From a virus: a stretch of 30,528 nucleotides of DNA. Shown here one piece after another: positions 7,528 through 20,400 of this stretch. The notes beneath the pieces were generated by a model. That model saw nothing but the letters and a program-made list of their open reading frames with translations. It did not search any database and had not been told where the DNA came from. The translations under genes and the position numbers were made by a program. The stretch spans positions 1 to 30,528 of the IMG/VR virus record IMGVR_UViG_3300034105_002222. The stretch is one strand, 5' to 3'. Every line of letters begins with the position of its first letter. Position 1 is the first letter of the stretch.

Positions 7528-7824
7528 TCAAAGCCCCTTTGAGCGGAGGAAGTCCACCACGGCAGATTGCACAGCGAAAAACGCGGCCTGCTCTCGCGGG
7601 TCTGTTATCTCGCTCTCGCGTCCGCGCACGAACAGAACCGCAGCGCTATCGAGCGTCTCTCTTGCGCCATGATCGTTAATACGAACAGGCACACACTGGA
7701 GGCTGAACGAGATCGGTTCTGTTCCGTTTTCCTGGAGTCGCTGGGTGATTGCCAGCGACACATCCCAGGCCGGGTATGCCTTGCCGTCCGATTCGATGAT
7801 TGCGTTTGATTTCATGTCGCTCAC
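7528..7824 (-). CDS. Hypothetical protein of fibre operon
   Basis: A 98-residue soluble protein, not recognised as a family. It starts with [25 protein letters not shown] and ends in a helical segment, [19 protein letters not shown]. The middle contains alternating strand-like stretches ([20 protein letters not shown]). It overlaps the collagen-like gene by four bases (ATGA) and is directly followed by the beta-repeat fibre gene, so the three are almost certainly co-translated. A fibre assembly chaperone or a small fibre-associated subunit would fit the position, but no sequence evidence proves either. Confidence 0.65.
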
Positions 7825-8498
7825 GAATAAGAGGCGGTGGCGTAGTCATCCCATGCGACATTTGTCGCCGTGAGCGTTGCGGTGATCGCACCGGCGGCCG
7901 AAACCTGCGATCGCTTGATCGTCCACACCGATGCGGAGGTAGCGGAACTGGCGGCGGCGCGGCCGGAGTAGGAGTAAGGCGAAGCCCACGCGAAGCGGCG
8001 CGAGTATGAAGGCGCAGAAGCTCCGGCCGGACCAGTCGGGCCGGTGGCACCAGCGGCCCCGGCCACACCCGCAGGGCCTTGCGCGCCAGCCGCGCCGGTG
8101 CTTCCGGTGGCTCCAGCCACACCGGCCGGGCCAATCGCTCCAGCCGCGCCGGCGGGCCCCTGGATTCCTTGGGGGCCTTGCGATCCTGCCACACCAGGGG
8201 AGCCGGCGGGGCCGGCTACACCCTGGGGGCCGGCGGGCCCCGCAGGGCCCCGCACAGGGCCAATGTTTACCCATGCAAGCCCGTCCCACTGAGCGCCGTA
8301 ACCGGCCAGAAATCCGGCCGGTGTGCCGGCGGGGACGGGATCAGGGAGCGTGTAGATCCAGCCGGCGGTTGGCGTTGCCGTTGGCGGCCAGGCGGCGGCA
8401 ACACCCTTGAAGAACGACGAAGCCCCCGAGGGCCCGGGGGCGTTGCTGACGGACACCGAGACCGGATCGTCGCTGATCGAGACGCTGATGTCGGTCAC
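7821..8498 (-). CDS. Collagen-like tail fibre protein
   Basis: A 225-residue protein with 26 uninterrupted Gly-X-Y triplets (residues 84-161, rich in GPA, GVA, GAA and GPT). Such a run predicts a trimeric collagen-like rod, common in phage fibres. The N-terminal 80 residues ([20 protein letters not shown], then [14 protein letters not shown] and [14 protein letters not shown]) look like an attachment domain. The C-terminal 62 residues ([19 protein letters not shown], then [10 protein letters not shown] and [10 protein letters not shown]) resemble a small beta-rich terminal module seen in many prophage fibres. It overlaps both neighbouring genes by four bases. Likely role is host contact or fibre shaft. 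Confidence 0.82.
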
Positions 8499-8826: not shown

Positions 8827-9120
8827 CTACCAGCCCAGAGTGTCGGTGAAGTCCGAGGGCGGTGTGTGACCGTTGCGGTTCCTGATCTCCGCCTTCAGCC
8901 GCTCGATCTCCTCCTGGCTGGGATCGGCTCGGGCCTTGCGGCCGCGCCCCTGCCCCCAGTGGACGTCGGCCAGCTGGTCGGCCAGGCGGGTGACCAGGAG
9001 CCGTCGAGAGACTCCAGCCAGCCAGGCGGCGTCGTCCTGGGTCAGGCCCCGCGCGTGGGCGTCCCGGATGATCCGCTCCTGATCGGGCGTCAACCGGACG
9101 CGGTCACCTCGAGCGGCCAT
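8827..9120 (-). CDS. Small helix-turn-helix protein
   Basis: This 97-residue protein has a homeodomain-like HTH at about residues 11-50 (LTPDQERIIRDAHARGLTQD, then AAWLAGVSRRLLVTRLADQL). A basic GRGRKAR patch and a helix (EEIERLKAEIRNRNG) follow. It lies between the RusA gene, which it overlaps by 17 bases, and the start of the fibre/late block. That is a position where late-gene activators or antiterminators often occur. DNA binding is likely from sequence. The regulatory role is inferred from place alone. Confidence 0.65.
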   Translation of the reverse strand: MAARGDRVRLTPDQERIIRDAHARGLTQDDAAWLAGVSRRLLVTRLADQLADVHWGQGRGRKARADPSQEEIERLKAEIRNRNGHTPPSDFTDTLGW

Positions 9121-9538
9121 GGGGAACCTCCTCGATCGTGACCTCGGTCAGATCGGCATCGCCCCAAGCCTTCACGACACGATCGTCGAACACCCGCCGA
9201 TCGTCGACGTAGGCTAGGCCCTTGAGGGCGTCCTTGATCGCCTTCCCGATGTTGTCGGTGTCCCCGAGGTTCTGGCCTGGGATGTCGGGGGCGGATGTCC
9301 GGAGCTCGCCAGACTTCGTGAGGTGCGACTTTGGCCGGCGGAAGGTCACGGTGACCCAAACTCGGACGGGGTGTGTGGCCAGCTTGCACCCAGCGGCCTT
9401 CGCTGCGGCCCGGATGGCGGCCTTGAAGGCCACGACCCCGTTGTCGGGGGTGTAGTGGTGGCCGTTCCTTGCAGACCGCGTGCGCGGTTGCGGGACCGGC
9501 CTGCCGGGGATCTCGAGGTGGATGGACGTCGTGGGCAT
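9104..9538 (-). CDS. rusA: RusA-like Holliday junction resolvase
   Basis: This 144-residue nuclease should resolve recombination or replication junctions in phage DNA. The RusA core is evident: GDTDNIGKAIKDAL at 92-105, where Asp 93 and Asp 95 would bind metal and Lys 99/102 assist, then GLAYVDDRRV at 107-116 with further acids Asp 112/113. The N-terminus (HLEIPGRPVPQPRTR) is the typical beta strand followed by a basic loop. It fits with the Sak4-type ATPase and SSB-like genes in the same transcription unit, giving a small recombination set. Confidence 0.93.
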   Translation of the reverse strand: MPTTSIHLEIPGRPVPQPRTRSARNGHHYTPDNGVVAFKAAIRAAAKAAGCKLATHPVRVWVTVTFRRPKSHLTKSGELRTSAPDIPGQNLGDTDNIGKAIKDALKGLAYVDDRRVFDDRVVKAWGDADLTEVTIEEVPHGRSR

Positions 9539-9557
9539 TCGCCCACGGTACGGGTGA

Positions 9558-10355
9558 TCAGTCGGTGGGCAACTCGGGTTTTGCGGCTTGCGTCGAACCC
9601 TCCGGAGTTTCCGGACTGTTGCCGCCGCTCGCGGCCTCCAGTTCTCTCCGCAACCGCTGCACTTCGGCGTCTGCCTTCAGCCGCTGGATCTCCGATTTGA
9701 CAAGCGCACGACGCAACACCTCGGCGTCGGCATCCGACGATGGCTCGTCGCTGACGACGCGGACGGATTCTGCTTCGTCCTCCTCCCCAAGACCCCACGC
9801 CTTGAGGATGTCGTGCCACGGCCATCGGAGAACGTGCAGCCCGTCTCCGCGGACGATCTCAAGCGTGACCCGCTCCGTCCTCATCCCGCTTTGCCCTTCG
9901 CCCGTTTCGCTCACCGGCACTGAGCGTTCCGCGGCATCGGCAAAGGGGCTGGCAATCGCCTCGGCCCGGTAGTCCGCGGCCTGTTCGTCTCGTTTGGTCG
10001 CCATGCCGTCCCCCTTGTTTTCCTGCTCCACCGCCGATGATGCCGAAACACTTTTCGGTAACATCGCGGGGTAACGTGCCGCCAACAGTCCCTTGCCATA
10101 CCGCCACGCCTCGACCAACGCCTGGAGCCGATCAACGCCTTGCTCCAGCAGGTCACCGAGAACGCACCGGCAGTCCTTTTGCACATCTTCCGGCCACGAC
10201 TTCACCTCGTCGCAGGCACGTTGAGCGGAAGCCTTGTCGAAGCCGAAGGCGCGGACAATCGCCTCCCCCAGCGTCGGCAGCGGCCGATCCCGGCCGTCCT
10301 CGGCCGCTCGGATGGCGGCGTCCCTGTCGATGTCGTGGCACCATGCGTGGGTCAT
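9558..10355 (-). CDS. Hypothetical protein with C-terminal coiled coil
   Basis: A 265-residue protein that I do not recognise. Residues 1-95 are helical (CHDIDRDAAIRAAEDGRDRP, later LGDLLEQGVDRLQALVEAWRYG). Residues 105-170 are polar. A small beta segment then reads RVTLEIVRGDGLHVLRWPWHDIL. The end, about 210-245, is a predicted coiled coil (ALVKSEIQRLKADAEVQRLR) followed by a Pro/Ser/Thr tail. The start overlaps the upstream gene by four bases (ATGA). It may be a structural or scaffold-like adaptor, but no function can be assigned. Confidence 0.7.
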   Translation of the reverse strand: MTHAWCHDIDRDAAIRAAEDGRDRPLPTLGEAIVRAFGFDKASAQRACDEVKSWPEDVQKDCRCVLGDLLEQGVDRLQALVEAWRYGKGLLAARYPAMLPKSVSASSAVEQENKGDGMATKRDEQAADYRAEAIASPFADAAERSVPVSETGEGQSGMRTERVTLEIVRGDGLHVLRWPWHDILKAWGLGEEDEAESVRVVSDEPSSDADAEVLRRALVKSEIQRLKADAEVQRLRRELEAASGGNSPETPEGSTQAAKPELPTD

Positions 10356-10552
10356 TCGTCGTCCCCCATTTCGTCCAGGTTGTCGATGTCGTCTTGGGTG
10401 ATCTCTTTGAGGTAGGCGACGATCTTGAGCATGGCAGACGAAGCCTTGACGTTATCTCCGTCGTCGCAGCCAAGCCTGCTCTTCATGTCCTGAAACTCTG
10501 CGTTCAAGAGCTTCTCGACATCACACCGCAGCTTCCAGCAATCACCTGCCAT
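10352..10552 (-). CDS. Small acidic hypothetical protein
   Basis: The ATG at 10552 is chosen because a strong ribosome site (GGGAGG) lies seven bases upstream. An in-frame start 51 bases earlier has none as good. The 66-residue product (MAGDCWKLRCDVEKLLNAEF...) is helical and ends in a very acidic stretch, KEITQDDIDNLDEMGDDE. No family recognised. It overlaps the next gene by four bases. Small acidic early proteins of phages sometimes mimic DNA or bind host factors, but there is no direct evidence here. Confidence 0.6.
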   Translation of the reverse strand: MAGDCWKLRCDVEKLLNAEFQDMKSRLGCDDGDNVKASSAMLKIVAYLKEITQDDIDNLDEMGDDE

Positions 10553-10619
10553 GCTCACCCCTCCCGCGGTCTCGCCGCTTGAATAACACGATCCCTTATT
10601 CAACCTTCGGCCGGTTGCC

Positions 10620-10982
10620 TCACATCCCCGTCGCCGTCGTGCCGGGCTTGAATGGCCCGTTGCTGTAGCCCATGTCGATCTGCACCAGCCGGACCGTCGC
10701 CGCCCGCAACTCCGCTTGCGACAGCAGCCGCCAGGACGATCCGCTGCCGACGAACACCCATGTGGTCGGGTCGTTGGTCGGCACGGTGTCTGGAAAGCCG
10801 CGCCAGTCGGCGTAGCCGGGATAGGTCTGGCCGTTGATCGTCACCGTCACCCAGCCCCTGAACAGCGTCGTCCGTGGGATCACCGCCGGGACCGGAGCCT
10901 TCCGCGGAGCCATCGCCCCCTCGCCGGACGCACCAACGAGAGCCAGAGCCGCTACCGCTACCAACGTCGAGACGAAACGCAT
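10620..10982 (-). CDS. Secreted or periplasmic small protein
   Basis: The ATG at 10982 gives a 120-residue protein with a clear signal peptide: Arg at 2, then hydrophobic VSTLVAVAALALVGA at 4-18. GAAGGG precedes the start, which supports it over longer in-frame readings that run through the tRNA-like element. The mature part has an aromatic, Gly-rich beta pattern (RGWVTVTINGQTYPGYADWR, then TTWVFVGSGSSWRLLSQ) and ends GPFKPGTTATGM. No family recognised. An exported protein inside an early replication block is unusual and suggests a moron, for example for host-surface modification or superinfection exclusion (inference). Confidence 0.65.
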   Translation of the reverse strand: MRFVSTLVAVAALALVGASGEGAMAPRKAPVPAVIPRTTLFRGWVTVTINGQTYPGYADWRGFPDTVPTNDPTTWVFVGSGSSWRLLSQAELRAATVRLVQIDMGYSNGPFKPGTTATGM

Positions 10983-11038
10983 TTCAGAATCCCTTCGAGG
11001 AAAATCGTGGCCGCCGTCGTGACGCACCACACCGCTAG

Positions 11039-11117
11039 GACACCAAGAGGGGCTCGAACCCTCATTTCCCCGAAGGGATCCTGCCCGAGGGCCAATTGGC
11101 CTTGGATGATTGGCGTC
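11039..11117 (-). tRNA. tRNA-like element with non-canonical anticodon arm
   Basis: The minus strand carries a textbook T-arm: stem GAGGG/CCCTC with loop TTCGAGC (plus-strand 11047-11063). It is flanked by an acceptor stem of 8 bp (GACGCCAA at 11117-11110 with TTGGTGTC at 11046-11039, one G-U). A 4-bp D-like arm (CCAA/TTGG) follows the 5' acceptor. The remaining part can form a 7-bp arm with a 9-base loop, or a hairpin with a UUCG loop, so a standard 5-bp/7-base anticodon arm is not found. No CCA is encoded. It lies between two secreted-protein genes. It could be a degenerate tRNA, a tRNA mimic or an attachment-site relic. Anticodon not assignable. Confidence 0.35.
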
Positions 11118-11125
11118 GTTGTCGA

Positions 11126-11485
11126 TCACCGCTGGCTGTAGCGCCGGCAGGCATACCAGCGGCCATCCCGCCCCTGTGCCGTGCCCTCCTCGAGCACCGT
11201 CCCGCCGTTGTTGCAGCAGGCTCCGAGAGCCGCGGCCGGACTGCCACCGACGCCAACACCTTCGTAGGTCGCCCCGTGGCTTGCCGCATGCACCAGCGAG
11301 CCGCTGGCCGCCATCGCCTCGGCGTGGCCCTGAGCACCGCGGGTCACCGTCCGGGTCGAAGCCGTCGAGCAGTTGCCGCCGGTGCAGGTGCTCGCCCTGG
11401 TCGTCGTCACCGAGCGCTTCCAGGGGCCGGCGTGGGCCGAGGTGGCGATCAGGGACAGGGCTACCGCGATTACGATCCGTCGCAT
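11126..11485 (-). CDS. Secreted cysteine-containing protein with RWYAC motif
   Basis: This 119-residue protein has a clear signal peptide, MRRIVIAVALSLIATSAHA, with cleavage expected after Ala 19. A Ser/Thr-rich segment containing CTGGNC follows. The C-terminal domain reads ATYEGVGVGGSPAAALGACC, then NNGGTVLEEGTAQGRDGRWYACRRY. From memory, that domain (YxGVG....A...CC......GxA.G.DGxWYAC) is a recurring one in planctomycete genomes and their mobile elements, and is one reason for the host guess. The cysteines could form disulphides outside the cytoplasm. Function unknown. It pairs with the other exported protein at 10620-10982. Confidence 0.75.
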   Translation of the reverse strand: MRRIVIAVALSLIATSAHAGPWKRSVTTTRASTCTGGNCSTASTRTVTRGAQGHAEAMAASGSLVHAASHGATYEGVGVGGSPAAALGACCNNGGTVLEEGTAQGRDGRWYACRRYSQR

Positions 11486-11552
11486 GGGAAATCCTCCGTG
11501 GGGAAAGGGAACTGGGTCGAACGTAGCCGAGGGGGGGCGGTGGGCAACTCGG

Positions 11553-12410
11553 TCAGGGGCCAGCGCGGGCGGCCTCTCGCTGCCGCGTGGCGGCCAGCCG
11601 GGCCAAGTCCTCGTCGCTCCAGGTCTGGAGAGGTGCCGCGGCTGGAGCGGCCCCCTTGCGAGTCCCTCCGCGGTCCTGGGCGTTCCGGAACCAGGACGAC
11701 AGGAACTTCCGCCAGTTGGTCCGCTTCGCCCGATCCGGGTGGGCCTTCAGCCACACCCCAGCCGCCGCGAACTCCGCGTCGAGGTCGACAGCCGGGAAAG
11801 CCGATCGCCACTCCGAGCGGTCCTCGGGGGTGATCCCCTGCCATCCCGCTTGCGCAGCCCATCGAACCTGCTGTGGCAAGCCGGCGTCAGCCGGTCTGGC
11901 CACAGAAGAGGGAAGTGGAAGTGGAGAAGGGAAGTGGAGAAGGGAAGTAGTAGGAAGTTGGGCCTGTCTTGGCGCTCGCCCGGGCGCGCCGTCGTGCTCG
12001 CCAGGGCTTGTCTTGGCGCTCGCCAGGGCTTGCAATTCATGAACCTCACCGCATGTTGGGCCGGCCGTGTAATTTCCCGGCTTCGCTAACGGGATCGTAA
12101 GGTTCAGGGAAGGTTCCCTCGGGTGGGGGGACTGGTGGGCGGTGAACTTGGTGATCAAAAGCCACTCCGCGCCCTCGGCCTCGAACCGCTGGAGGAAGCC
12201 CCGGGCCTCGAGGTCACCGACCAGGGCGGCGACGTCGGCGTCGTCGAACGGGAGGATCTCCGCCTTCAGCCGGCGGGGCCGGTACTCGACGATCCCGTGG
12301 CGGTCGGCCTGGCACCAGAGACCAGCGAACAGGATCCGCCCCAGCGGGTGGACCTCCCCGAGGAGGTCATTGGTGAAGAACCCAGGCTTGATGCTTCTCG
12401 TCCTTGCCAT
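11553..12410 (-). CDS. Phage replication initiator with winged-helix N-terminus
   Basis: A 285-residue protein starting at the ATG at 12410, which overlaps the upstream stop by one base (TGATG). Residues 1-100 (MARTRSIKPGFFTNDLLGEV, then PLGRILFAGLWCQADRHGIVE) match the winged-helix start common to phage replisome organisers. Residues 120-190 form a low-complexity Pro/Ser/Ala linker encoded by repeated DNA. The C-terminal part (DRSEWRSAFPAVDLDAEF, then TNWRKFLSSWFRNAQD) resembles helicase-loader or DnaT-like terminal helices. The layout is like lambda O, with a DNA-binding domain, a linker containing the origin and a partner-binding domain. No phage helicase was seen, so the host helicase would be recruited (inference). 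Confidence 0.75.
   Translation of the reverse strand: MARTRSIKPGFFTNDLLGEVHPLGRILFAGLWCQADRHGIVEYRPRRLKAEILPFDDADVAALVGDLEARGFLQRFEAEGAEWLLITKFTAHQSPHPREPSLNLTIPLAKPGNYTAGPTCGEVHELQALASAKTSPGEHDGAPGRAPRQAQLPTTSLLHFPSPLPLPSSVARPADAGLPQQVRWAAQAGWQGITPEDRSEWRSAFPAVDLDAEFAAAGVWLKAHPDRAKRTNWRKFLSSWFRNAQDRGGTRKGAAPAAAPLQTWSDEDLARLAATRQREAARAGP
11921..11946. repeat. Two perfect tandem 13-bp purine-rich repeats
   Basis: GTGGAGAAGGGAA occurs at 11921-11933 and again at 11934-11946, inside a longer purine-only-like run (about 11905-11957). The unit length is not a multiple of three, so the two copies are read in different codon phases of the initiator gene. The conservation is therefore at the DNA level rather than the protein level. 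It directly adjoins the 22-bp repeats to its right. Confidence 0.75.
11952..12039. repeat. Four degenerate 22-bp iterons, candidate replication origin
   Basis: GCTCGCC recurs at 11974, 11996 and 12018, a spacing of exactly 22 bp. The second and third copies share 15 bases (GCTCGCCAGGGCTTG). The unit before (11952-11973) matches the right half of the second unit (GGGCcTGTCTTGGC), so a 16-base stretch repeats at 11965 and 12009. The period is about two helical turns and is not a multiple of three. The array lies in the linker region of the replication initiator gene next to a purine-rich tract, as in the lambda origin inside gene O. Origin function is inference. Confidence 0.5.
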
Positions 12411-12679
12411 CACTTCCCCCCGATCAGGTTCAAAGGAACAACGCTGCCATCTGCCATCACCCGGCTGATCCGCGGCCCGGGTCGGAGCCGTTGCTCGATC
12501 TCACACAGGAGCTTGTGGGCCGGCAGGGCCCCAAGCTTCCAGTCGTCCATCTTCTCGAGGATCAGGGCCTTGATGTCCGGCAGGGCCTCGTTGGCCGATG
12601 TCTGGATCAGGGCCGAGAAGTCCCGAAGGAGGGCCGCCTCCACATCAGGGTCGACCGGCTTGCCGTGGCGGATGTCCAT
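12410..12679 (-). CDS. Small helical hypothetical protein upstream of initiator
   Basis: An 89-residue protein, mostly helical: MDIRHGKPVDPDVEAALLRD, then FSALIQTSANEALPDIKALI and LEKMDDWKLGALPAHKLLCE. A short strand end reads SRVMADGSVVPLNLIGG. Its stop overlaps the initiator ATG by one base, so the two are translationally coupled. It also directly abuts the HTH gene upstream. No family recognised. A partner of the initiator is a reasonable guess from coupling only. Confidence 0.65.
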   Translation of the reverse strand: MDIRHGKPVDPDVEAALLRDFSALIQTSANEALPDIKALILEKMDDWKLGALPAHKLLCEIEQRLRPGPRISRVMADGSVVPLNLIGGK

Positions 12680-13009
12680 TCAGACCAGCCGCCATTCCAT
12701 CTCCGCCCGGCCTGCCGCCGACGGAACCTCTCGCCCCGTGGGGACGACCAGGCCATCGCGGACCAGATTCCTCATCCGCCGGATCACCTGTTGATCGGTG
12801 AGCCCACACAGGTGGGCAATCCGGGTCTTCCCGGCCGGGCCACACTCCAAGGCCACCAGGATCAGCCCCTCGTGTTCCGTCTTCATCCTGGGGGTGACGG
12901 CCCGCGCCGCCGCCACGCTCGTCGGCGGATCGCTCCGCCTGGCCGAGGCGAACAGCGGGAGCCCGCTGTCGTCCGGGGCCGGTCGGTAGTCGTCGATCGT
13001 CGTCCTCAT
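12680..13009 (-). CDS. Winged-helix DNA-binding protein
   Basis: The start is the ATG at 13009, which overlaps the upstream stop (ATGA) and sits about seven bases after GGGAGGGG. The ATG two codons earlier abuts that site and is less likely. In the 109-residue product, residues 14-35 (LFASARRSDPPTSVAAARAV) resemble the N-terminal helix common in phage regulators. Then comes a MarR/GntR-like winged helix (LILVALECGPAGKTRIAHLC, then GLTDQQVIRRMRNLVRDGLV). It probably regulates or assists early gene expression. Its DNA target is unknown. Confidence 0.7.
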   Translation of the reverse strand: MRTTIDDYRPAPDDSGLPLFASARRSDPPTSVAAARAVTPRMKTEHEGLILVALECGPAGKTRIAHLCGLTDQQVIRRMRNLVRDGLVVPTGREVPSAAGRAEMEWRLV

Positions 13010-13287
13010 CGGCATCCCCTCCCGTTCTCGATTGCCGCCCATGCGATCTCCCGGAGCAGCTGCTCCCGGTCGGTGGGCTGGTCGAACTCCACCGCCTCGA
13101 GCTCCTGCTGGAGCTCGTCCCACACGCTGCCGGCCGCGGCGGGCTCGGGATCCACCACCGGGCAGACCAGCCGCATCGCGGCCGATCCCCGGATCGAAGC
13201 CTGAATGCCGTGTGTCGAGCAATATCGACGCTCCCCGACTTCCCACCGGCCAGCCTGATCGCAACCGTTCTCCGTGCAATCGCTCAT
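13006..13287 (-). CDS. Small protein with N-terminal zinc-binding cysteines
   Basis: The ATG at 13287 is preceded by an excellent site (AAGGAGGGGG), giving 93 residues. An in-frame start far upstream would read through a non-coding hairpin region. The N-terminus MSDCTENGCDQAGRWEVGER, then RYCSTH, has Cys4, Cys9, Cys22 and His25, a plausible single zinc site. The C-terminal half is acidic and helical (SVWDELQQELEAVEFDQPTD). It overlaps the winged-helix gene by four bases. No specific family recognised. Confidence 0.65.
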   Translation of the reverse strand: MSDCTENGCDQAGRWEVGERRYCSTHGIQASIRGSAAMRLVCPVVDPEPAAAGSVWDELQQELEAVEFDQPTDREQLLREIAWAAIENGRGCR

Positions 13288-13426
13288 CGTCTCCCCCTCC
13301 TTGTGGTGTCGATCAACCCATCCCACCCCGGCCGCGTCGATCGGCCGCCGTGCCATTTCACGGGGGTGGTTGCCTCGGCTCGTCAGGATCACGACCGAGG
13401 CTGCCGGTGATCGGCCGTGCAAGTGC

Positions 13427-13479
13427 GGCCCCGCTCGTCCGGCTCACGGGCCCATTCCGCCACCGTGTGAGGCGGGGCC
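13427..13479. other. Long inverted repeat in non-coding gap
   Basis: The 200-base gap 13288-13488 has no supported gene. It contains GGCCCCGC (13427-13434) and its exact complement GCGGGGCC (13472-13479). Inside these arms, CTCAC and GTGAG can extend the pairing. The structure has no following U-tract on either strand, so it is not a standard intrinsic terminator. It could be an RNA structure, a processing site or a regulator site. Confidence 0.4.
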
Positions 13480-13488
13480 AGGGCTGGC

Positions 13489-13719
13489 CTATCGCTGAAT
13501 CGTCCGCTCGAGCTCCGCCGATTCCCGGACCCTCGACCGGATCGCCAGAAGCTGCGGCGATTGACAACACTCCATGCCGCCGCCCGTCCTCTCCCACCAG
13601 AGGTTCAACTCCTTCCGCAGCGCGGAAAGGCTGGCCTCGAACTGGGCGATTTGCTGCCGACGACCTTCCGAGTCGTGGACGGCCTGATAGGAGCGCGATG
13701 GGCTGCGGTGCTTAGCCAT
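13489..13719 (-). CDS. Small coiled-coil hypothetical protein
   Basis: A 76-residue basic protein, MAKHRSPSRSYQAVHDSEGR, then a helical segment RRQQIAQFEASLSALRKELN and a second helix RSRVRESAELERTIQR. AAAGG lies just upstream of the ATG. No family recognised. It is the last gene before the 200-base non-coding gap with a large inverted repeat, and follows the SSB-like gene with 14 bases between. It could be a small nucleic-acid or protein-binding helper of the recombination set. Confidence 0.6.
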   Translation of the reverse strand: MAKHRSPSRSYQAVHDSEGRRQQIAQFEASLSALRKELNLWWERTGGGMECCQSPQLLAIRSRVRESAELERTIQR

Positions 13720-13733
13720 GGGAACCTTTCAGG

Positions 13734-14252
13734 TCAGAACGGCACATCGTCGGAACCACCGGCCTCGTCGCCTCGGGCCGCAGCGACAGCCGCCGCAGGC
13801 GTCCGGGGCTTGCTCGCCTTCACCGGGGCCGGCTCTGCGGCCGGGGCCGGTGCAGCAGCGACGGCACCACCGCGGACCGTCCATGTCCCGCGGATCGAGT
13901 CGACGCCGACATTGGTGCGGGACTGGTCATCCACCCAGCGACGGGTCGACACCAGCACCCGCTTCCCGCGGAGCTCGCGGGGATCCAGGTCGAGCCCGTT
14001 GGAGCGGTCGATCTGGAGAGCGTCGGCCAGGGCCGCGCCGAACCGAATCCCCCGGGCCGTGTCGCTGATCTTCAGCACCGGCCAGGCGTAGACCTCCGCG
14101 CCCTTGATGGGCTGGAAGACCACCCGCAGGTTCGCAGTCCCGTCGTTGTCGAACTTGTCCTCCGCGCTCACGATGACGCACTCGTGCCGCCCGTCCTCGA
14201 GGGGCTCGGTGCCCTCGATGGCCTGTCCCGGCGTGTAACTGGTGAACTCCAT
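13734..14252 (-). CDS. SSB-like protein (DUF669 type) with acidic C-terminal tip
   Basis: A 172-residue protein with an N-terminal beta-rich domain (YTPGQAIEGTEPLEDGRHECVI-type start, then NLRVVFQPIKGAEVYAWPVLK, GIRFGAALADALQID, LRGKRVLVSTRRWVDD). It resembles the DUF669/OB-fold single-strand binding proteins that accompany phage ATPases. Residues 128-165 are an Ala/Pro-rich linker. The end is GGSDDVPF, very like the DDDIPF tip by which bacterial SSB recruits partners. GAGGAGGG precedes the start. Together with the Sak4-type ATPase gene just upstream it should coat and present single-stranded phage DNA. Confidence 0.75.
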   Translation of the reverse strand: MEFTSYTPGQAIEGTEPLEDGRHECVIVSAEDKFDNDGTANLRVVFQPIKGAEVYAWPVLKISDTARGIRFGAALADALQIDRSNGLDLDPRELRGKRVLVSTRRWVDDQSRTNVGVDSIRGTWTVRGGAVAAAPAPAAEPAPVKASKPRTPAAAVAAARGDEAGGSDDVPF

Positions 14253-14264
14253 CTCGATCCCTCC

Positions 14265-14630
14265 TCATCCCTCGACGACGGTGGCGGCCGGTTCAACCGG
14301 CTCCGAATCCCCCGCCGCGTGTTCGATCACTTGCTTCAGTTGGATCACCGCCCTGGCCAGCAGCTGGCAGCGGCGCGGGTTCCGCGACAGCCGCCATTCC
14401 TCGACTACTTGCCTCGCCCGTTGTGCGATCTCCTCCGCGTAGGCCACCGCCTGGAGCGTGTTCAGCGAGGGGATCGGCTTGTCGGCATAGGCCGCGGCGT
14501 CATCGGCTGCGTCCTTGGCCGAATCGATCCGCCGCCTCATGCGCTTGGCCATCTCGACGAGCGGGTCGGGGACCGGATCCTCCGCTTCGCGGTCCCAAAC
14601 TTCCCGCCATGTCCTCGGAGGGGCGTCCAT
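14265..14630 (-). CDS. Helical hypothetical protein between ATPase and SSB genes
   Basis: A 121-residue protein starting at the ATG at 14630, which overlaps the ATPase stop by one base (TGATG). It is strongly helical: DPVPDPLVEMAKRMRRRIDS, then AKDAADDAAAYADKPIPSLN and EEIAQRARQVVEEWRLSRNP. The repeated Ala pattern suggests coiled-coil or helical-bundle packing. No family recognised. Its place between the recombinase ATPase and the SSB-like gene suggests a recombination or replication accessory. Confidence 0.65.
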   Translation of the reverse strand: MDAPPRTWREVWDREAEDPVPDPLVEMAKRMRRRIDSAKDAADDAAAYADKPIPSLNTLQAVAYAEEIAQRARQVVEEWRLSRNPRRCQLLARAVIQLKQVIEHAAGDSEPVEPAATVVEG

Positions 14631-15529
14631 CACTCGGCCCCCGCCTCGACCGCGTCTTCGACGGCCAGGAGCTCCCGCCCGTGGGCGACGGCCTGGTCGA
14701 TGGCATCACTGCGGCTGATCCCCGAGTCGATCGCGGCCCGCATCACCGACCGGCAGGCGGCCTTCACCGAGTCCGGGAACTCTCCGATCTCGACGATCCT
14801 CGGATCGAGAGGGGGGGCGGCCGGCGGCGGGGGGGAAACCGCCGCCGGCTCGCCGTCGGCCAGCCAGAGGGCAAGCTGACTGCCGAACTCCTCATCGGGC
14901 TTGTCGATCAACTTGTCTTGGAATCGCCCGGTGCGGTCCTTGATCACGTTGGCGATGTGCTCGGTGGAGATCTCCAAGAGCAAGTCGAACTCGTACTCGA
15001 TGCCCTTGCCCTGCTCCGGGGCCATGCCGATCCGCTGGGGAACCTTCTTCCCGCGGCCGTCTTCCACCGTGGTCCATTCGGTCTTGCTGCGGATCGTGGC
15101 CAGGACATGGCCCGGGAAGTCCAGGATCGCGTTGACCAACTTCTTCTGTCGCGGCGTCCCCTCGGACCACGCCGACCATGTGTTGCCGCGGTACTTGGCC
15201 TTGGCCAACTTCTCGACCTCTTCGAGGAGCGATTGCCAGCCGTGGCTCAGGCTGTCGATGATCAAAACGTCGTAGCCGTGGGCCGACTTGATGGCCTCGA
15301 TGTAGCCATCGATCGAATAGTCGGTGAGATCCTGAACGTCGAAGTCGAAACGGTCGCTGTACTTCGATGCCGATCCACGCTCGGTGTCGATGAATGCGAT
15401 CGTCCCCGTCGGGCCCGCCAAGCCGCGGGCTATCCGAAGGACGGAGAACGTCTTCCCTCCACCGGACGGGCCCAGCACGGCCGCCCGGAGCCTTGCTTGT
15501 GCCTTCGTTGCCTTGCGAAATCCTGCCAT
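14630..15529 (-). CDS. RecA/Sak4-like phage recombination ATPase
   Basis: The ATG at 15529 is preceded by AAGGGGGAG and overlaps the upstream stop by one base. The product is 299 residues. The P-loop is GPSGGGKT at 20-27, followed by the FIDTERGSASKYSD strand and loop. Walker B is YDVLIIDSLSHGW at about 86-98, and later LDFPGHVLATIRSKTEW carries the sensor region. This is the RecA-fold AAA_24/Sak4 pattern of phage single-strand annealing ATPases, which work with an SSB partner (encoded two genes on). The C-terminus is a Pro-rich linker and a small helical domain. It should promote recombination-dependent replication or repair in the cytoplasm. Confidence 0.87.
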   Translation of the reverse strand: MAGFRKATKAQARLRAAVLGPSGGGKTFSVLRIARGLAGPTGTIAFIDTERGSASKYSDRFDFDVQDLTDYSIDGYIEAIKSAHGYDVLIIDSLSHGWQSLLEEVEKLAKAKYRGNTWSAWSEGTPRQKKLVNAILDFPGHVLATIRSKTEWTTVEDGRGKKVPQRIGMAPEQGKGIEYEFDLLLEISTEHIANVIKDRTGRFQDKLIDKPDEEFGSQLALWLADGEPAAVSPPPPAAPPLDPRIVEIGEFPDSVKAACRSVMRAAIDSGISRSDAIDQAVAHGRELLAVEDAVEAGAE

Positions 15530-15690
15530 CACACTCCCCCTTTTTTCTCTCGCCCCTTGCGTGGCGGGACGACCGAACTGCTCGGTCTCTTGATCCCCCG
15601 CCGCGCTGCATCCGCTTGATCCTCTGACCACGCTGCCCGGATCTCTTTCAAAGCCTTCCGGAGCTTCCTCGAGATCGTGATCGTGGCCAT
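15529..15690 (-). CDS. Small basic ribbon-helix-helix-like protein
   Basis: The ATG at 15690 follows GGAGGG with good spacing. The product is 53 residues: MATITISRKLRKALKEIRAA, then W..., a polar stretch and a basic tail (RKGREKKGGV). A short strand (TITIS) followed by an amphipathic helix looks like the N-terminal half of a ribbon-helix-helix DNA binder, though the second helix is not clear. It is coupled by one-base overlap to the ATPase gene. It may bind early-region DNA. Confidence 0.55.
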   Translation of the reverse strand: MATITISRKLRKALKEIRAAWSEDQADAARRGIKRPSSSVVPPRKGREKKGGV

Positions 15691-15794
15691 GCCTGCCCTC
15701 CGTGATCCCGCCGGCGGTTCCACCACCGACGGGCCGCTCCTGTGACTCCCGCTCCGCGGGCTCCCTGCCGAGGCCTCCAGCCCCGGCCCGTCCT

Positions 15795-15944
15795 TCACTC
15801 CAACTCGCTGGGGTCGAGGACCAGGAGGTCCATCGGGATACCCTCAGTCACCGGCTCGACGGGAGGAGCCCCGTAGACCTCGAGCATTCCCGCGATGGCC
15901 CCGGCCGCTTCCCGATCCCCTGGCTGTTCGTCGTTGCTTTGCAT
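15795..15944 (-). CDS. Very small acidic protein
   Basis: Reads from the ATG at 15944 (GAGGGG upstream) for 49 residues: MQSNDEQPGDREAAGAIAGM, then LEVYGAPPVEPVTEGIPMDL and LVLDPSELE. G+C-rich third positions make it look genuinely coded. Its first 97 bases overlap, in another frame, the 3' end of the HTH gene at 15848-16300. Either a true overlap or a frameshift between the two is possible. No family recognised. Confidence 0.5.
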   Translation of the reverse strand: MQSNDEQPGDREAAGAIAGMLEVYGAPPVEPVTEGIPMDLLVLDPSELE

Positions 15945-16300
15945 TGCGTTTCCCCTCGGTGAATCCGATCGCTCTGATGCCTGATGCCCCGGGCCGCCGC
16001 CAGAAAGACTTCCGGTGACCAGCCAGCCCGAATCTCTGCCGTGATCCGCTCGACGTCGGCCTCGGTCGGGTCGTCGTCGAGGGGGAGTCCGGTGAGGACT
16101 GACCACTCGTGTCGAACCTCCCCGACCGATCGCCCCATCACCCAAGCCGTCCGCTCGTTGCTCAGCCCGATCTGCCAGCAGAGGTGAGCCAGGCTCCGGT
16201 CGAACGGCAGAGCCGCGCCCCCGAATCGCCCTGGCTTCTTCCCCGCTGCCGCCTGCTTTGCCCTCTTCCTTGCCGTTGCCCTCGTCCCCGTGTCCGACAT
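15848..16300 (-). CDS. First gene of early operon, HTH-containing
   Basis: The ATG at 16300 is chosen for its ribosome site (GGGCGAGGGG), giving 150 residues. The N-terminus is basic (TRATARKRAKQAAAGKKPGR). Residues 33-70 (FDRSLAHLCWQIGLSNERTA, then WVMGRSVGEVRHEWSVLTGL) look like a helix-turn-helix. Then DDPTEADVERITAEIRAGWS follows. The final 35 or so residues (GKRPGPSRECSRSTG...) look like off-frame translation and overlap the next small gene, so a frameshift or a naturally long overlap is possible. As first gene after the operator-flanked promoter it is a candidate early regulator. Confidence 0.6.
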   Translation of the reverse strand: MSDTGTRATARKRAKQAAAGKKPGRFGGAALPFDRSLAHLCWQIGLSNERTAWVMGRSVGEVRHEWSVLTGLPLDDDPTEADVERITAEIRAGWSPEVFLAAARGIRHQSDRIHRGETQCKATTNSQGIGKRPGPSRECSRSTGLLPSSR

Positions 16301-16460
16301 CCCCTCGCCCCCGTTGGTGTTCTTCCGTTCAGTTAGTTCAGGGAAGATAGACCAGCCGGGGGCGGGATCAACCCACCCCAGACAGCCCAACTGTCCACCC
16401 TGGAAAACTCGGGGGAATCGGCTTGGACACTTGCCGTGAATGGGCTGCCGAGCCCGATCA

Positions 16461-16482
16461 ATCCTCCCGCATGCGGGAAGAT
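16461..16482. promoter_or_regulatory. Operator O1, palindrome near transcription start
   Basis: ATCCTCCCGC-AT-GCGGGAAGAT: two 10-base arms with one mismatch around a 2-base centre. The half-site ATCTTCCCGC is shared with O2. It starts eight bases after the -10 hexamer of the early promoter, so a bound protein would block initiation. The O1-O2 centre distance is 64 bp (about six turns), which allows looping by the same protein. Confidence 0.75.
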
Positions 16483-16490
16483 GAGGGCGA

Positions 16491-16520
16491 AAGATATGAA
16501 ACGCCCATCAAGCCTGTCAA
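16491..16520 (-). promoter_or_regulatory. Early leftward sigma-70-like promoter
   Basis: On the minus strand a perfect -35 hexamer TTGACA (16520-16515) is followed after 18 bases by TATCTT (16496-16491). It points into the early operon that begins at 16300. It is bracketed by the two palindromic operators: O2 five bases upstream of the -35, and O1 over the initiation region. No other match this good was noticed in the window. Confidence 0.75.
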
Positions 16521-16525
16521 GAGGA

Positions 16526-16545
16526 TCTTCCCGCGTGCGGGAAGA
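16526..16545. promoter_or_regulatory. Operator O2, palindrome upstream of -35
   Basis: TCTTCCCGC-GT-GCGGGAAGA is a perfect 9-base inverted repeat around a 2-base centre, with the same half-site as O1. It lies five bases upstream of the -35 hexamer and 31 bases downstream of the stop of the HTH gene at 16576-16806. A repressor of the early promoter, or a dual activator/repressor, is the expected ligand. Confidence 0.75.
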
Positions 16546-16575
16546 ATCGCAGAAACGGCCGAGAAATGGCCTGAA

Positions 16576-16806
16576 TCAGTTCTTTTTGAAACCTTGCCGA
16601 AGCCCGCCAACTGTGCGCGGCTTGGCGGCGTATCTGCGAACGTCCTTGTCTCGCAACGCTAGTTCGCGGCCGAACTTGGCCGCATAGATCTTGTCGGCGG
16701 CAACCAACTTGCGCACGCCCGAGGTGCTCATATTGAGCAACTTGGCCGCGTCAGCGGTGCAAAGCCAGTCGATGCCTTCCGGCCCTGGGAGTCCCATGCG
16801 TTTCAT
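16576..16806 (-). CDS. MerR/excisionase-like HTH protein
   Basis: A 76-residue protein from the ATG at 16806 (GGGG just upstream). Residues 13-60 (DWLCTADAAKLLNMSTSGVR, then KLVAADKIYAAKFGRELALR) are a typical helix-turn-helix of the excisionase/MerR type, with the wing residue pattern and a final basic tail (GGLRQGFKKN). It is divergent from the integrase (200 bases apart) and lies immediately upstream of the O2-promoter-O1 cluster. It could be the excisionase, the regulator that binds those operators, or both. No cI-type repressor gene was found elsewhere. Confidence 0.75.
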   Translation of the reverse strand: MKRMGLPGPEGIDWLCTADAAKLLNMSTSGVRKLVAADKIYAAKFGRELALRDKDVRRYAAKPRTVGGLRQGFKKN

Positions 16807-16864
16807 ATCCCCAGCATTGCCAGCGCTTCCGCCGTGGGCAACACGGGGAAACCGACAATTCACC

Positions 16865-16894
16865 GACGCTCTCCCTTGCGTAGGGTTGAGCGTC
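16865..16894. promoter_or_regulatory. Inverted repeat in integrase/HTH divergent region
   Basis: GACGCTC (16865-16871) pairs exactly with GAGCGTC (16888-16894), and inside them CCCT (16873-16876) pairs with AGGG (16882-16885). Other features of this 200-base gap are an AGGG-CTA-CCCT palindrome at 16955-16965 and a direct repeat GGATGCCAT at 16981-16989 and 17000-17008. The region is expected to hold divergent promoters and possibly integrase or excisionase arm sites. No clear promoter hexamers were found. Confidence 0.4.
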
Positions 16895-17006
16895 TGACCA
16901 AGTCCGAACGGAGAGGGCTCCGCTCGTACTGGCGGGGTTGTACCTATGTTCACTAGGGCTACCCTGAGCAAACACGGCATGGATGCCATTCACTTGAGGG
17001 GATGCC

Positions 17007-17933
17007 ATGCTTCTGCGTCAACTGCTGATCGACCGATACGCCCCGGTGAAGGGGCTCTCCGACCGAACCGTCGCGATCTACGGCTCGACCTTGGACAGGT
17101 TCCGGGACTTCCTGAAACGGGAGCCGACGGTCGACGACCTCGAGGAGGACATGATCGCCGCATTCCTGTCATGGAGGGCAAAGACGGTCCACAGCGAGAA
17201 ACGTGGCCTGCCCTCCCCGGGGACGATCGCGAAGGACCGGACACAGTTGCTCTGCCTCGCGCTCTATGCCTTCCGGAAAAGGTTGATCGCGGAGTTTCCC
17301 ATCGTGAAGCCGATTCGGAAGGCCCAGCGTCTCCCCCGCGGATTCACGGCCGAAGAGGTGGGGCGGATGATCATGGCGGCCAGGAAGCGCCAGCGGACCC
17401 TGGCGGGCCTGCCGGCAGGGTGGTGGTGGTCGACGTTGATCTACTCGGCTTGGTGTACGGGGGCCCGGATCGGTGAACTGATGGCGCTTCGCTGGAAGGA
17501 TGTCCGGGGGGAGGAGATCGTCTTCCTCGCGGGGACGCGGAAGGGCCACACGCGCGACATCGCCCGGAAGATCACGCCCGATCTCGCGGCCGAGCTCGAG
17601 CTCCACCGCCGATGCCCCGGCGATCTGGTCTGGCCATGGCCACACCGGCCGACGTCGATATACCACTCCATGAGAATCCTTTGTGATCAGGCCGGCGTAC
17701 CACAGAGGCGATTCCACGCTCTCCGGAAGGCATCGGCCAGCTACGTTGCCGCGGCCGGCGGGGATGCCGTGGGCCACCTCGACCACAGTGATGCGAACAT
17801 CACGAGGGACCACTACCTTGACGACCGGATCGTCGGGAAGGCGGCGGGGGTGGATTTCCTGCCACGGCTCGACCTGGGCGACAATGCCCCATTCGTGCCC
17901 GACCAGGCCCAATTCGTGCCGGACCCGGAATAG
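17007..17933 (+). CDS. int: Tyrosine recombinase integrase
   Basis: A 308-residue site-specific recombinase. The N-terminal SAM-like core-binding domain (RYAPVKGLSDRTVAIYGSTL, residues 10-100) is followed by the catalytic domain. Residues visible are Arg154 in TGARIGELMALRW, Lys179 in GTRKGHT, His237 and Arg240 in FHALRKAS, His260 in HLDHSDANIT, and the nucleophile Tyr270 in RDHYLDD. GAGGGG precedes the ATG. All catalytic positions are present, so the phage should be able to integrate. It is on the plus strand, opposite to nearly all other genes. No attP core could be identified with confidence. Confidence 0.95.
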   Translation: MLLRQLLIDRYAPVKGLSDRTVAIYGSTLDRFRDFLKREPTVDDLEEDMIAAFLSWRAKTVHSEKRGLPSPGTIAKDRTQLLCLALYAFRKRLIAEFPIVKPIRKAQRLPRGFTAEEVGRMIMAARKRQRTLAGLPAGWWWSTLIYSAWCTGARIGELMALRWKDVRGEEIVFLAGTRKGHTRDIARKITPDLAAELELHRRCPGDLVWPWPHRPTSIYHSMRILCDQAGVPQRRFHALRKASASYVAAAGGDAVGHLDHSDANITRDHYLDDRIVGKAAGVDFLPRLDLGDNAPFVPDQAQFVPDPE

Positions 17934-17971
17934 CCGGCGGCGTGGTACTATCCCAGCAGGAGGGCCGCTAG

Positions 17972-18310
17972 ATGAGCAAAGATACCGCACCAAAGGTGAG
18001 AGAGCCGGCGGGGTTTGTCGTCCTTGATTTGTCGGTGAAGGTTGCGACGAACGCTTGGACAGACTTCTCCGACAACAACGATTTCCGGAACGAGCGCGCG
18101 GCGTCCGACAAAACTCATTTTGAAGCCGCAGACCCAAACCACCTTGGATACGTCATTGGAATCCGTGCGACCGATTTGATCTGGAGCGTTCTCGAAGGAA
18201 GCGGAGATCGCGAATCGCTTCTCGGATTCCTCGAAGGCGTGAAAAGCAGGGTCGATGATCGCATCCGCGAGATGGACGCGGCCGACAGGGATTGGAAAGA
18301 TCCGCAGTGA
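17972..18310 (+). CDS. Hypothetical protein downstream of integrase
   Basis: A 112-residue, rather acidic protein preceded by AGGAGGG. It has a central segment AWTDFSDNNDFRNERAASDK, then HLGYVIGIRATDLIWSVLEG, and a charged C-terminal helix (LEGVKSRVDDRIREMDAADR). G+C is lower than in most of the window (about 58% in a sampled line). It is co-oriented with the integrase, 38 bases after its stop, so it may be expressed in the lysogen. No family and no DNA-binding motif recognised. A lysogenic-conversion or immunity role is possible but only from position. Confidence 0.65.
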   Translation: MSKDTAPKVREPAGFVVLDLSVKVATNAWTDFSDNNDFRNERAASDKTHFEAADPNHLGYVIGIRATDLIWSVLEGSGDRESLLGFLEGVKSRVDDRIREMDAADRDWKDPQ

Positions 18311-18312
18311 CC

Positions 18313-18390
18313 ATGACGGCCCGTCAGATCATCGCGTGGATGCCCATCACGATCCCGGTGGCCCTGCTGCTGCGGTGGCTGGTAGGGTGA
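18313..18390 (+). CDS. Tiny predicted membrane peptide
   Basis: Three bases after the preceding stop, an ATG opens a 25-codon frame: MTARQIIAWMPITIPVALLL then RWLVG. A single hydrophobic helix (IIAWMPITIPVALLL) is flanked by Arg residues, as in a small membrane peptide. No strong ribosome site is visible, so expression would depend on coupling to the gene before. Too short for homology to be decisive. Confidence 0.4.
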   Translation: MTARQIIAWMPITIPVALLLRWLVG

Positions 18391-18422
18391 ACTTTCGCAC
18401 GACACGAAACGAGGAACAACAG

Positions 18423-18647
18423 ATGGAATCGAAAGGCGAAATGGTTTTGCCGGTGGTCGGAGGGCCGATGGACGGACAACTACACCCCTGCTCCACGGAC
18501 TTCGTGAGCTTCGAGGAGTTGGCCGCAGACGGGTCGACCGTCGAGCACACCTACCGCCGTGAGTTGATGTGCGTCGGCGGGCCCTGGGTGCTTTCGTTCG
18601 TCCAGACAATCCCGCCGCCGAAGGATCTCAAGATCAGCGTCCCGTGA
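18423..18647 (+). CDS. Small GGPMDG-motif phage protein
   Basis: A 74-residue protein from the ATG at 18423 with GAGGAA upstream. It carries the LPVVGGPMDGQ motif at 9-19 and a strand with Tyr-Arg-Arg-Glu-Leu (VEHTYRRELMCVGGPWVLSF). Proteins with an N-terminal GGPxDG motif followed by YxxE/YRREL are widespread small phage and actinobacterial/planctomycete proteins without a known role. The 3' end overlaps the converging dNMP kinase gene by 14 bases. Confidence 0.65.
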   Translation: MESKGEMVLPVVGGPMDGQLHPCSTDFVSFEELAADGSTVEHTYRRELMCVGGPWVLSFVQTIPPPKDLKISVP

Positions 18648-19164
18648 ACGTCGCCACCACCCGCTCCCGCAGCTGGTCGACGGTCCCGTCGTTGACGATC
18701 AGGCGGTCGATCAACCGCAGCGGGAGCCCCGCCTCGGACTCGTGAGCGGCCACGGGCTCGACCCCGGGCCGATGGATCATCCAGACCTCTCCGCCCTCGG
18801 AGCGGATCTGCCGGGCCTCGTTGGGGAATCGGACATCGGGGACGACGATCACCCCAAGCCCGGCCGCGGCGGCCTGCTCCCACCGCCAGAAGGCGACACG
18901 GAGCCAGATGTCAGGGCAGATCATCTGCCGGCCCCACTCCGTCCCGAGGGTCTGGAGCAGTTGCCGAGGGGATGCCCCGAAGCCAGCGAGGGGCCGCTCC
19001 TTCGCGGAGCGGTCCCGGAGGACTCCCTCGGGGACGCCAAGCATGGCGGCCAGGCCCTGGTAGAGCGGGTCGGCAAATGCGATTCGGTGGCCCCCGGGGA
19101 TCATCGAGGCGGCGAGGTCTTTGCCGGCCCCGGCGGGGCCTGTGAATCCGATGATGTGTCGCAT
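18634..19164 (-). CDS. Deoxynucleoside monophosphate kinase
   Basis: A 176-residue P-loop kinase that would raise dNMPs to dNDPs for phage DNA synthesis. Motifs are GFTGPAGAGKD at 6-16, FADPLYQGLAAMLG around 30-43, the GTEWGRQMICPDIWLR lid/substrate region, and VIVVPDVRFPNEA around 105-117, as in T4 gene 1-type enzymes. GGAGGG precedes the start. It lies at the distal end of the leftward structural transcript and converges with the lysogeny segment. Confidence 0.87.
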   Translation of the reverse strand: MRHIIGFTGPAGAGKDLAASMIPGGHRIAFADPLYQGLAAMLGVPEGVLRDRSAKERPLAGFGASPRQLLQTLGTEWGRQMICPDIWLRVAFWRWEQAAAAGLGVIVVPDVRFPNEARQIRSEGGEVWMIHRPGVEPVAAHESEAGLPLRLIDRLIVNDGTVDQLRERVVATFTGR

Positions 19165-19194
19165 GCCCTCACCCTCCCGCGCTCTGCCCTCGGA

Positions 19195-20400
19195 TCAACC
19201 CCCGTCTGCCACCAGCATCCCGGCCAGCCCGCCGCCGGCCCGATAGAACCATGTCTCCATCGCCTGCCGACTGCCGATGAAGCCCTCCTGGGAATGCCAG
19301 TCATCGGGCGGGCACAGGGCGGGGGCGGTCCTGACGACCACACCGTCGACCGTGTCGATCCCATCGGAGTCGATCACCCGGCGGATCTTGCTGGCCTGCT
19401 TGTGGAGGTGGCCCGTGTGGATCTCCCGGTATCGGCACCGGGCCCACGCTTCGCGGGCCTCTAACGTCATCAGCGACGGGAGCTTGGCCCGGGCCTTGTC
19501 GCCATGAGCGAAGCCCAACAGGTTGCCTTGGTGCTCGAGGTACTGGCGATGGGTGTAGACGTTGTGGACCGTCACCCGGCGATCCTTCGCGAAGTGGGTC
19601 CGCAACAGCAACCGGAACCACGCGGTCATCGTCTCGTCGTGATTGCCGGGGACGATCACGCAGTCGGTCGGGGCGGTCTCGGCGGATCGCTCGACCAGGG
19701 CAACCAGGGCGGAGGAGCCCGTCTCGATCATCCGCTCGAGTCGGCCGTCTCGCTCCAGCTGTGTCCCGCGGGTCGTGGTCGCTGACGGCGTGTCGTAGTG
19801 AAACAGATCCCCGAGGAATGCAATCGTGCGACGACCAGGGCGGTGAGCGTCCCCGGCCTCGAGGAGCCCGAGCCCGGCGGAACGGACCAGCCGATCGGCG
19901 TGGTCGAGATCGTAGTCATCGCCCCCGGTGGTCTTATGCCAGGCGTACTTGGCAAAGTGGGTGTCGGCAACCACCAACACCTGCCACGGGCCGGGGCGGG
20001 CCTTCGCGGCCTTCGCCTTGGGGCGTCCGATGCCCCCGGCCTTCGCGGCCCCGGCGATCATCGCGGCGACGAGCTCCGCGACGGCTGGCCCACCGCGGGG
20101 GCGGAGCCGAACGAACACCCGGTGAAGGACTGTGACGACCGGCTTCCCGGTGTCGCGGTCGACGGTGGCCACCTCCCACTTCGTCGCCTCCGAGGCGGAC
20201 ACCTCGAAACGGGCCATGTCGGCCTCGATGTGGAGGAGCAGATCCTCGACGGTGCGGATCGTCCGGGAGGTCGAGCGGTACTCGAGGTCGGCCCCCTCGC
20301 GGCGCTCGGTCACCTGCTCCGCGTCGGGGGCGGGCTTCGTGGCGGCGGCGGCAACGGACTCGGCCACCGCGTGCTTCAGTCCTCGCGCTTGTTGAACCAT
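19195..20400 (-). CDS. Calcineurin-like metallophosphoesterase
   Basis: A 401-residue protein whose C-terminal 260 residues hold the whole metallophosphoesterase motif set: DTH at 146-148, GDLFHYD at 197-203, PGNHDE at 251-256, FAHGD at 298-301 and HTGHLHKQ at 328-335. The N-terminal 130 residues are helical and charged, with an Ala/Lys-rich linker (GRPKAKAAKARPGP). Such enzymes in phages are thought to act on DNA ends, nucleotides or RNA, and the exact substrate cannot be read from sequence. The start overlaps the previous gene by 25 bases, with GGAGGTG upstream. Confidence 0.87.
   Translation of the reverse strand: MVQQARGLKHAVAESVAAAATKPAPDAEQVTERREGADLEYRSTSRTIRTVEDLLLHIEADMARFEVSASEATKWEVATVDRDTGKPVVTVLHRVFVRLRPRGGPAVAELVAAMIAGAAKAGGIGRPKAKAAKARPGPWQVLVVADTHFAKYAWHKTTGGDDYDLDHADRLVRSAGLGLLEAGDAHRPGRRTIAFLGDLFHYDTPSATTTRGTQLERDGRLERMIETGSSALVALVERSAETAPTDCVIVPGNHDETMTAWFRLLLRTHFAKDRRVTVHNVYTHRQYLEHQGNLLGFAHGDKARAKLPSLMTLEAREAWARCRYREIHTGHLHKQASKIRRVIDSDGIDTVDGVVVRTAPALCPPDDWHSQEGFIGSRQAMETWFYRAGGGLAGMLVADGG

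Follow-up and report, generated by a model that had tools for sequence, protein, structure and literature searches.

A very probable replication origin within the linker-coding part of a phage initiator gene

Does the phage represented by the window (the whole stretch of DNA analysed, 30,528 nucleotides) start its replication inside the gene of its own initiator? The earlier note on this DNA had proposed so, from two sets of short repeats within one gene. That an origin can lie inside an initiator gene is already established as a general idea. In the analysis reported here the segment 11905-12034 was found to be, very probably, the phage replication origin, situated in the linker-coding part of the initiator gene and acting by the mechanism proposed below.

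The initiator and its gene neighborhood

The gene at 11553-12410 on the minus strand (ATG at 12410, 285 aa) encodes a phage replication initiator with a winged-helix N-domain, a disordered linker and a folded C-domain. The product matches PHROG 16167 'replication initiation protein' (E 5e-35), and a Pfam/NCBIfam search with it gave no match. Homologues are present in 59 phage records, among them phages of Pseudomonas, Vibrio, Bordetella, Acinetobacter, Escherichia, Hafnia and Myxococcus, and the family shares the N-terminal start MARxRNIKPGFF. In the AlphaFold2 model of the whole protein, residues of about 1-110 are ordered and are followed by the linker (111-175, pLDDT < 50) and the C-domain. 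The N-domain modelled alone (residues 1-105; 12096-12410, minus strand) had a mean pLDDT of 95, and the C-domain (residues about 181-250; 11661-11870, minus strand) reached about 89-96. The latter is presumed to contact the host replisome; it varies among family members, some of which match DnaD (TIGR01446), TIGR02220, Phg_2220_C or DnaB_2.

A fold search with the N-domain returned 4pt7, 5kbj and 4pql as the top three PDB matches, with modest E values (0.003-0.009) and probabilities of 0.99-1.0. Their titles are 'Structure of initiator', 'Structure of Rep-DNA complex' and 'N-Terminal domain of DNA binding protein', respectively, and we take all three to be RepA_N plasmid initiators; the Pfam RepA_N domain itself did not match the N-domain. 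The two repeat arrays described below encode residues 125-169, which places them in the disordered linker of a winged-helix replication protein, as had been claimed. The disorder of this linker would leave the underlying codons free to accommodate an origin.

No helicase loader or helicase was recognized near the initiator among the genes tested in window positions 9104-11485. Many relatives have a helicase loader or DnaB-type helicase gene annotated beside the initiator; a downstream gene of this kind is the usual order and is not required for an origin. A recombination set without a recognized helicase loader lies at 9104-20400, with RusA (9104-9538), a weak SSB match (13734-14252), an AAA_24/Sak4-like ATPase (14630-15631) and an exonuclease (19195-20400). 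Tandem repeats also occur elsewhere in the window: 54-bp units at 8032-8152, in a reading frame (7821-8498, minus strand) with a collagen-like GxY product, and a 21-bp repeat at the 3' end of the integrase gene (17879-17925), the period of which is a multiple of three.

Two repeat arrays in the linker-coding DNA

Array A (11958-12034, minus strand), the presumed initiator binding sites, comprises seven 11-bp units with a 22-bp super-period. The core GCTCGCC occurs at 11974-11980, 11996-12002 and 12018-12024 (strand not assigned), with the positions and the exact 22-bp spacing given in the earlier note. Tandem Repeats Finder (TRF) reported a 22-bp unit in 3.3 copies at 11960-12032 (score 90), and no other 73-bp stretch of the 30.5-kb window had a better self-match at lags of 8-30. 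Lag 22 gave 38 matches out of 63 in the gene segment nt 376-460, where synonymous-codon shuffles gave 25.6 ± 3.2 (p = 2e-4), and in the same control lag 44 gave p < 2e-4; the period thus exceeds what protein constraint accounts for. An 11-mer PWM was built from 78 other arrays of the family, leaving the window out, and both strands of the window were scanned. Array A was the top match for three units (12034-12002) and for seven (12034-11958, directly abutting array B), but not for four, five or six, for which the best matches lie elsewhere in the window, outside array A. The strong 11-bp units, at 12034 (TGCAAGCCCTG), 12012 (GACAAGCCCTG) and 11968 (GACAGGCCCAA), are 22 or 44 bp apart, which is why the period in the window is 22 bp; lag-7 and lag-11 signals in the window linker were not significant against synonymous shuffles. 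Judged from these sequence features, array A probably consists of initiator sites of 11 bp, every second one of which is strong.

Array B (11905-11957, minus strand), the presumed unwinding or loading element, is made up of pyrimidine-rich ACTTCCC/TTCTCC repeats of 13 bp. Two perfect tandem 13-mers, previously described at 11921-11946, were found there (GTGGAGAAGGGAA twice); the same pair can be read in another register at 11917-11942, and a third copy is partial. Agreement at lag 13 also exceeded synonymous-codon shuffles (p = 0.013), so that this period, too, goes beyond protein constraint, as the earlier note had argued, with a signal weaker than that of the 22-bp array. On the coding strand, pyrimidines make up 89% of the stretch 11905-11958, and no other 54-mer in the window is as strand-biased. 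The stretch has a GC content of 50%, against 66% for the window; only 0.08% of the window 54-mers are as unstable. The asymmetric, easily melted stretch expected beside the repeats is therefore present, and array B probably is the strand-asymmetric unwinding or loading part. Cumulative GC skew, suggested as a further check, did not point to the locus: the curve has minima near 16.5 kb and 25 kb but none at 12 kb.

Layout in related phages and nearest relatives

Scans of viral and bacterial collections, together with named phages, gave a family set of 165 distinct genes. Loss of the repeats in relatives that keep the protein was to count against an origin; instead, linker arrays with a period other than that of codons were the rule, across many phyla. 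In the linker of 123 non-redundant relatives a two-part layout was found, in which tandem 11-bp units (consensus RACAAGCMCNG) are phase-locked to a downstream heptamer array, usually of CTGATTC. Against synonymous shuffles, the linker periodicity of these genes reached z = 9 (7 bp), 18 (11 bp), 6 (14 bp) and 14 (22 bp). The 11-bp units keep a constant register with the first heptamer, with excess agreement of 0.18, 0.14 and 0.17 at lags 11, 22 and 33 in 79 genes. By sequence comparison, this two-part DNA pattern written over protein code recurs in most of the related phages compared, whose hosts span many bacterial phyla.

At least two clustered exact copies of CTGATTC are present in 116 of the 165 genes, and at least two copies in 16 of 26 genes of a held-out set; in the named phages the arrays lie just past the winged helix of the homologous gene. 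Spacings are mostly 7, 14, 21, 8 and 15 bp. All 280 copies in 79 non-redundant genes fall in codon phase 0 or 1; phase 2, in which the heptamer would put a TGA in frame, is not used. Of 63 fourteen-bp intervals, 45 have CCTTAAC in the place of the forbidden copy and keep to the 7-bp register. Since the heptamers occupy two codon phases and the forbidden copy is swapped with the register retained, the DNA heptad is the conserved unit. When a 28-bp array probe was run against IMG/VR, all 80 loci fetched lay in this type of initiator gene; 78 have the N-domain detected upstream in the same orientation, and in the remaining two, truncated by the locus end, recognizable linker sequence continues up to that end. 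Of 43 genes lacking an exact CTGATTC array, a 7-bp signal was detected in 21, an 11-bp signal in 18 and a 22-bp signal in 14 (p <= 0.05).

The window initiator belongs with the CTGATTC-type family by its homologous N-domain. Clustered CTGATTC copies are absent from the window, and about 30% of the family likewise has no exact array. Array B occupies the position at which relatives carry the CTGATTC array; the two may be equated on position, strand bias and stability. In 79 genes the composition of array A varied with N-domain distance (partial rho 0.42, permutation p = 0.003) but not with C-domain distance (partial rho -0.03, p = 0.80). Such covariation would be expected if the N-domain binds array A; array A adjoins the N-domain sequence, and linkage could mimic the effect.

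Some initiator linkers contain endonuclease-type domains inserted between N-domain and array, namely HNH (L012:2501-3580 and L065:3001-4020) and, in phage Mx8, T5orf172 (L009:2501-3649). The initiators of phages SG_WM_Sew_P27 (L012) and JBD44 (L007) differ in their N-domains, and their genes have identical DNA from the first CTGATTC over the stretch compared, as if they had recombined at the array.

Matches were found in 13 of 392 planctomycete genomes scanned. The single close relative, and the closest cellular relative of the window, is a Planctomycetaceae MAG carrying contig L101, the initiator protein of which is 89% identical; the host of the virus is probably a planctomycete. A search for close phage DNA relatives of the window, itself an IMG/VR virus record, gave none. 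Between window and L101, synonymous changes affect 1 of 33 codons in array A, 23 of 103 in the N-domain (p = 0.009) and 4 of 78 after array B; the low divergence extends beyond array A and lends the origin weak support. The register of array B differs between the two. The initiator gene (window:11553-12413) is 100% DNA-identical in IMG/VR record L002, within a 7.4-kb aligned block of 95% identity; a contig of this record was the only IMG/VR match to the window's own 18-bp unit, and the comparison is uninformative because the genes are identical. Two relatives have, upstream of the initiator, G-rich stretches of GGCNN-type repeats about 300-400 bp long (L101:2230-2640 and L022:2640-2960). Their GGCAAGGCA and GGCATGGCA repeats do not occur on the plus strand of the window, and only one reverse-complement copy was found.

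Proposed mechanism, alternatives and known systems

In the proposed mechanism the winged-helix N-domain would bind the 11/22-bp units of array A, each about one helical turn long. The resulting nucleoprotein complex would melt the adjacent pyrimidine-rich, low-stability array B, and the exposed strand together with the C-domain would then recruit a helicase or primase. The origin reading is well supported in silico by the two arrays, the family-wide layout, the phase rules and the covariation with the N-domain, all of them computed from sequence.

A tentative and rather doubtful extension is that array B acts as a strand-specific single-strand loading element like the DnaA-trio or the DnaD recognition element of oriC. 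Either a DnaD-like initiator or some conserved host factor might recognize the array, which would be kept across bacterial phyla; at the protein level it would be limited mainly by the need to avoid stop codons, and the window lineage would have swapped the element. Speculatively, the TnnT core of the DnaD recognition element is matched by TGAT on one strand of each CTGATTC.

Winged-helix proteins often bind tandem operators, and array A could be an operator, bound by the initiator to repress either the initiator gene itself or a different transcript, with the true origin elsewhere; covariation with the N-domain would fit this as well. The arrays, however, lie 375-505 bp inside the gene and not at a promoter, a conserved, low-stability, strand-asymmetric array comes next, and the closest folds and named precedents are origins, which makes an operator unlikely. 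Still less probably, the arrays are neutral minisatellites that slippage generated in a linker free of constraint. The disorder of the linker and the shifted register of array B in L101 would agree with slippage, but not the recurrence of one heptamer in different phyla, in two codon phases and with its third-phase copies replaced in register, the phase lock of the 11-bp units to the first heptamer, or the top PWM matches at array A. RNA structure or an overlapping reading frame might also impose constraint, and parts of the gene are also open in several other frames. Yet mRNA folding was no better than in shuffles (z = +0.84), the two other forward frames contain stops common to the window and L101, and the heptamers occur in two frames; this explanation is considered very improbable.

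If 11905-12034 is the origin, a likely origin has been located by sequence alone for a large, mostly unannotated class of temperate phages and prophages. The simple grammar of 11-bp units followed by heptamers in two codon phases can be used to find origins and pair them with initiators, and it illustrates how signals in the DNA take precedence over codon choice where the linker is disordered. Phages of E. coli such as HK639 offer a tractable model. In the open-licence papers searched, neither the shared 11-bp and heptamer grammar nor its phylum-wide spread was found, and a search on CTGATTC arrays returned nothing relevant.

Among known systems, the BstA/aba DNA element, with CCCGCC repeats at the start of the gene, was considered and rejected as unrelated. 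Francisella phage KIRK is similar by description: a lambda-like origin with direct repeats was proposed inside its Phg_2220_C replication gene fhv_0043 (PMC7924643), a single in-silico proposal. In the pSK41 RepA_N system the Rep boxes bound by the winged-helix NTD lie within rep, the DNA that encodes the linker serves as the ori, the protein linker is dispensable and the CTD contacts the host replisome (PMC5703833). The RepA_N plasmids resemble the arrangement proposed for the window in having the ori inside rep, and the N-domain has its best fold matches, at modest E values, among initiators of this type; they differ in being plasmids rather than phages, in their repeats, and in the Pfam RepA_N match that the window N-domain lacks. 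Phage SPP1 has direct repeats and an unwinding element inside its replisome-organizer gene 38, at oriL (PMC6316719); the likeness drawn here is one of layout, and SPP1 has a second known origin, oriR. In lambdoid phages ori-lambda lies in the middle of the O gene, where an easily melted tract comes after a tandem set of initiator sites (PMC7466680). The lambda analogy drawn in the earlier note is thus apt, with SPP1 gene 38 and the RepA_N plasmids as further precedents; as in intragenic iteron origins of the lambda O and SPP1 38 kind, the window has tandem repeats beyond codon constraint, next to an easily melted, strand-asymmetric stretch, and the proposed origin shares with lambda O both the intragenic position and the order of presumed site array and melting tract. 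Lambda has iterons of the 18-20-bp class and an AT-rich tract, whereas the window family has 11/22-bp units, a heptamer or pyrimidine array and an initiator of another sequence family.
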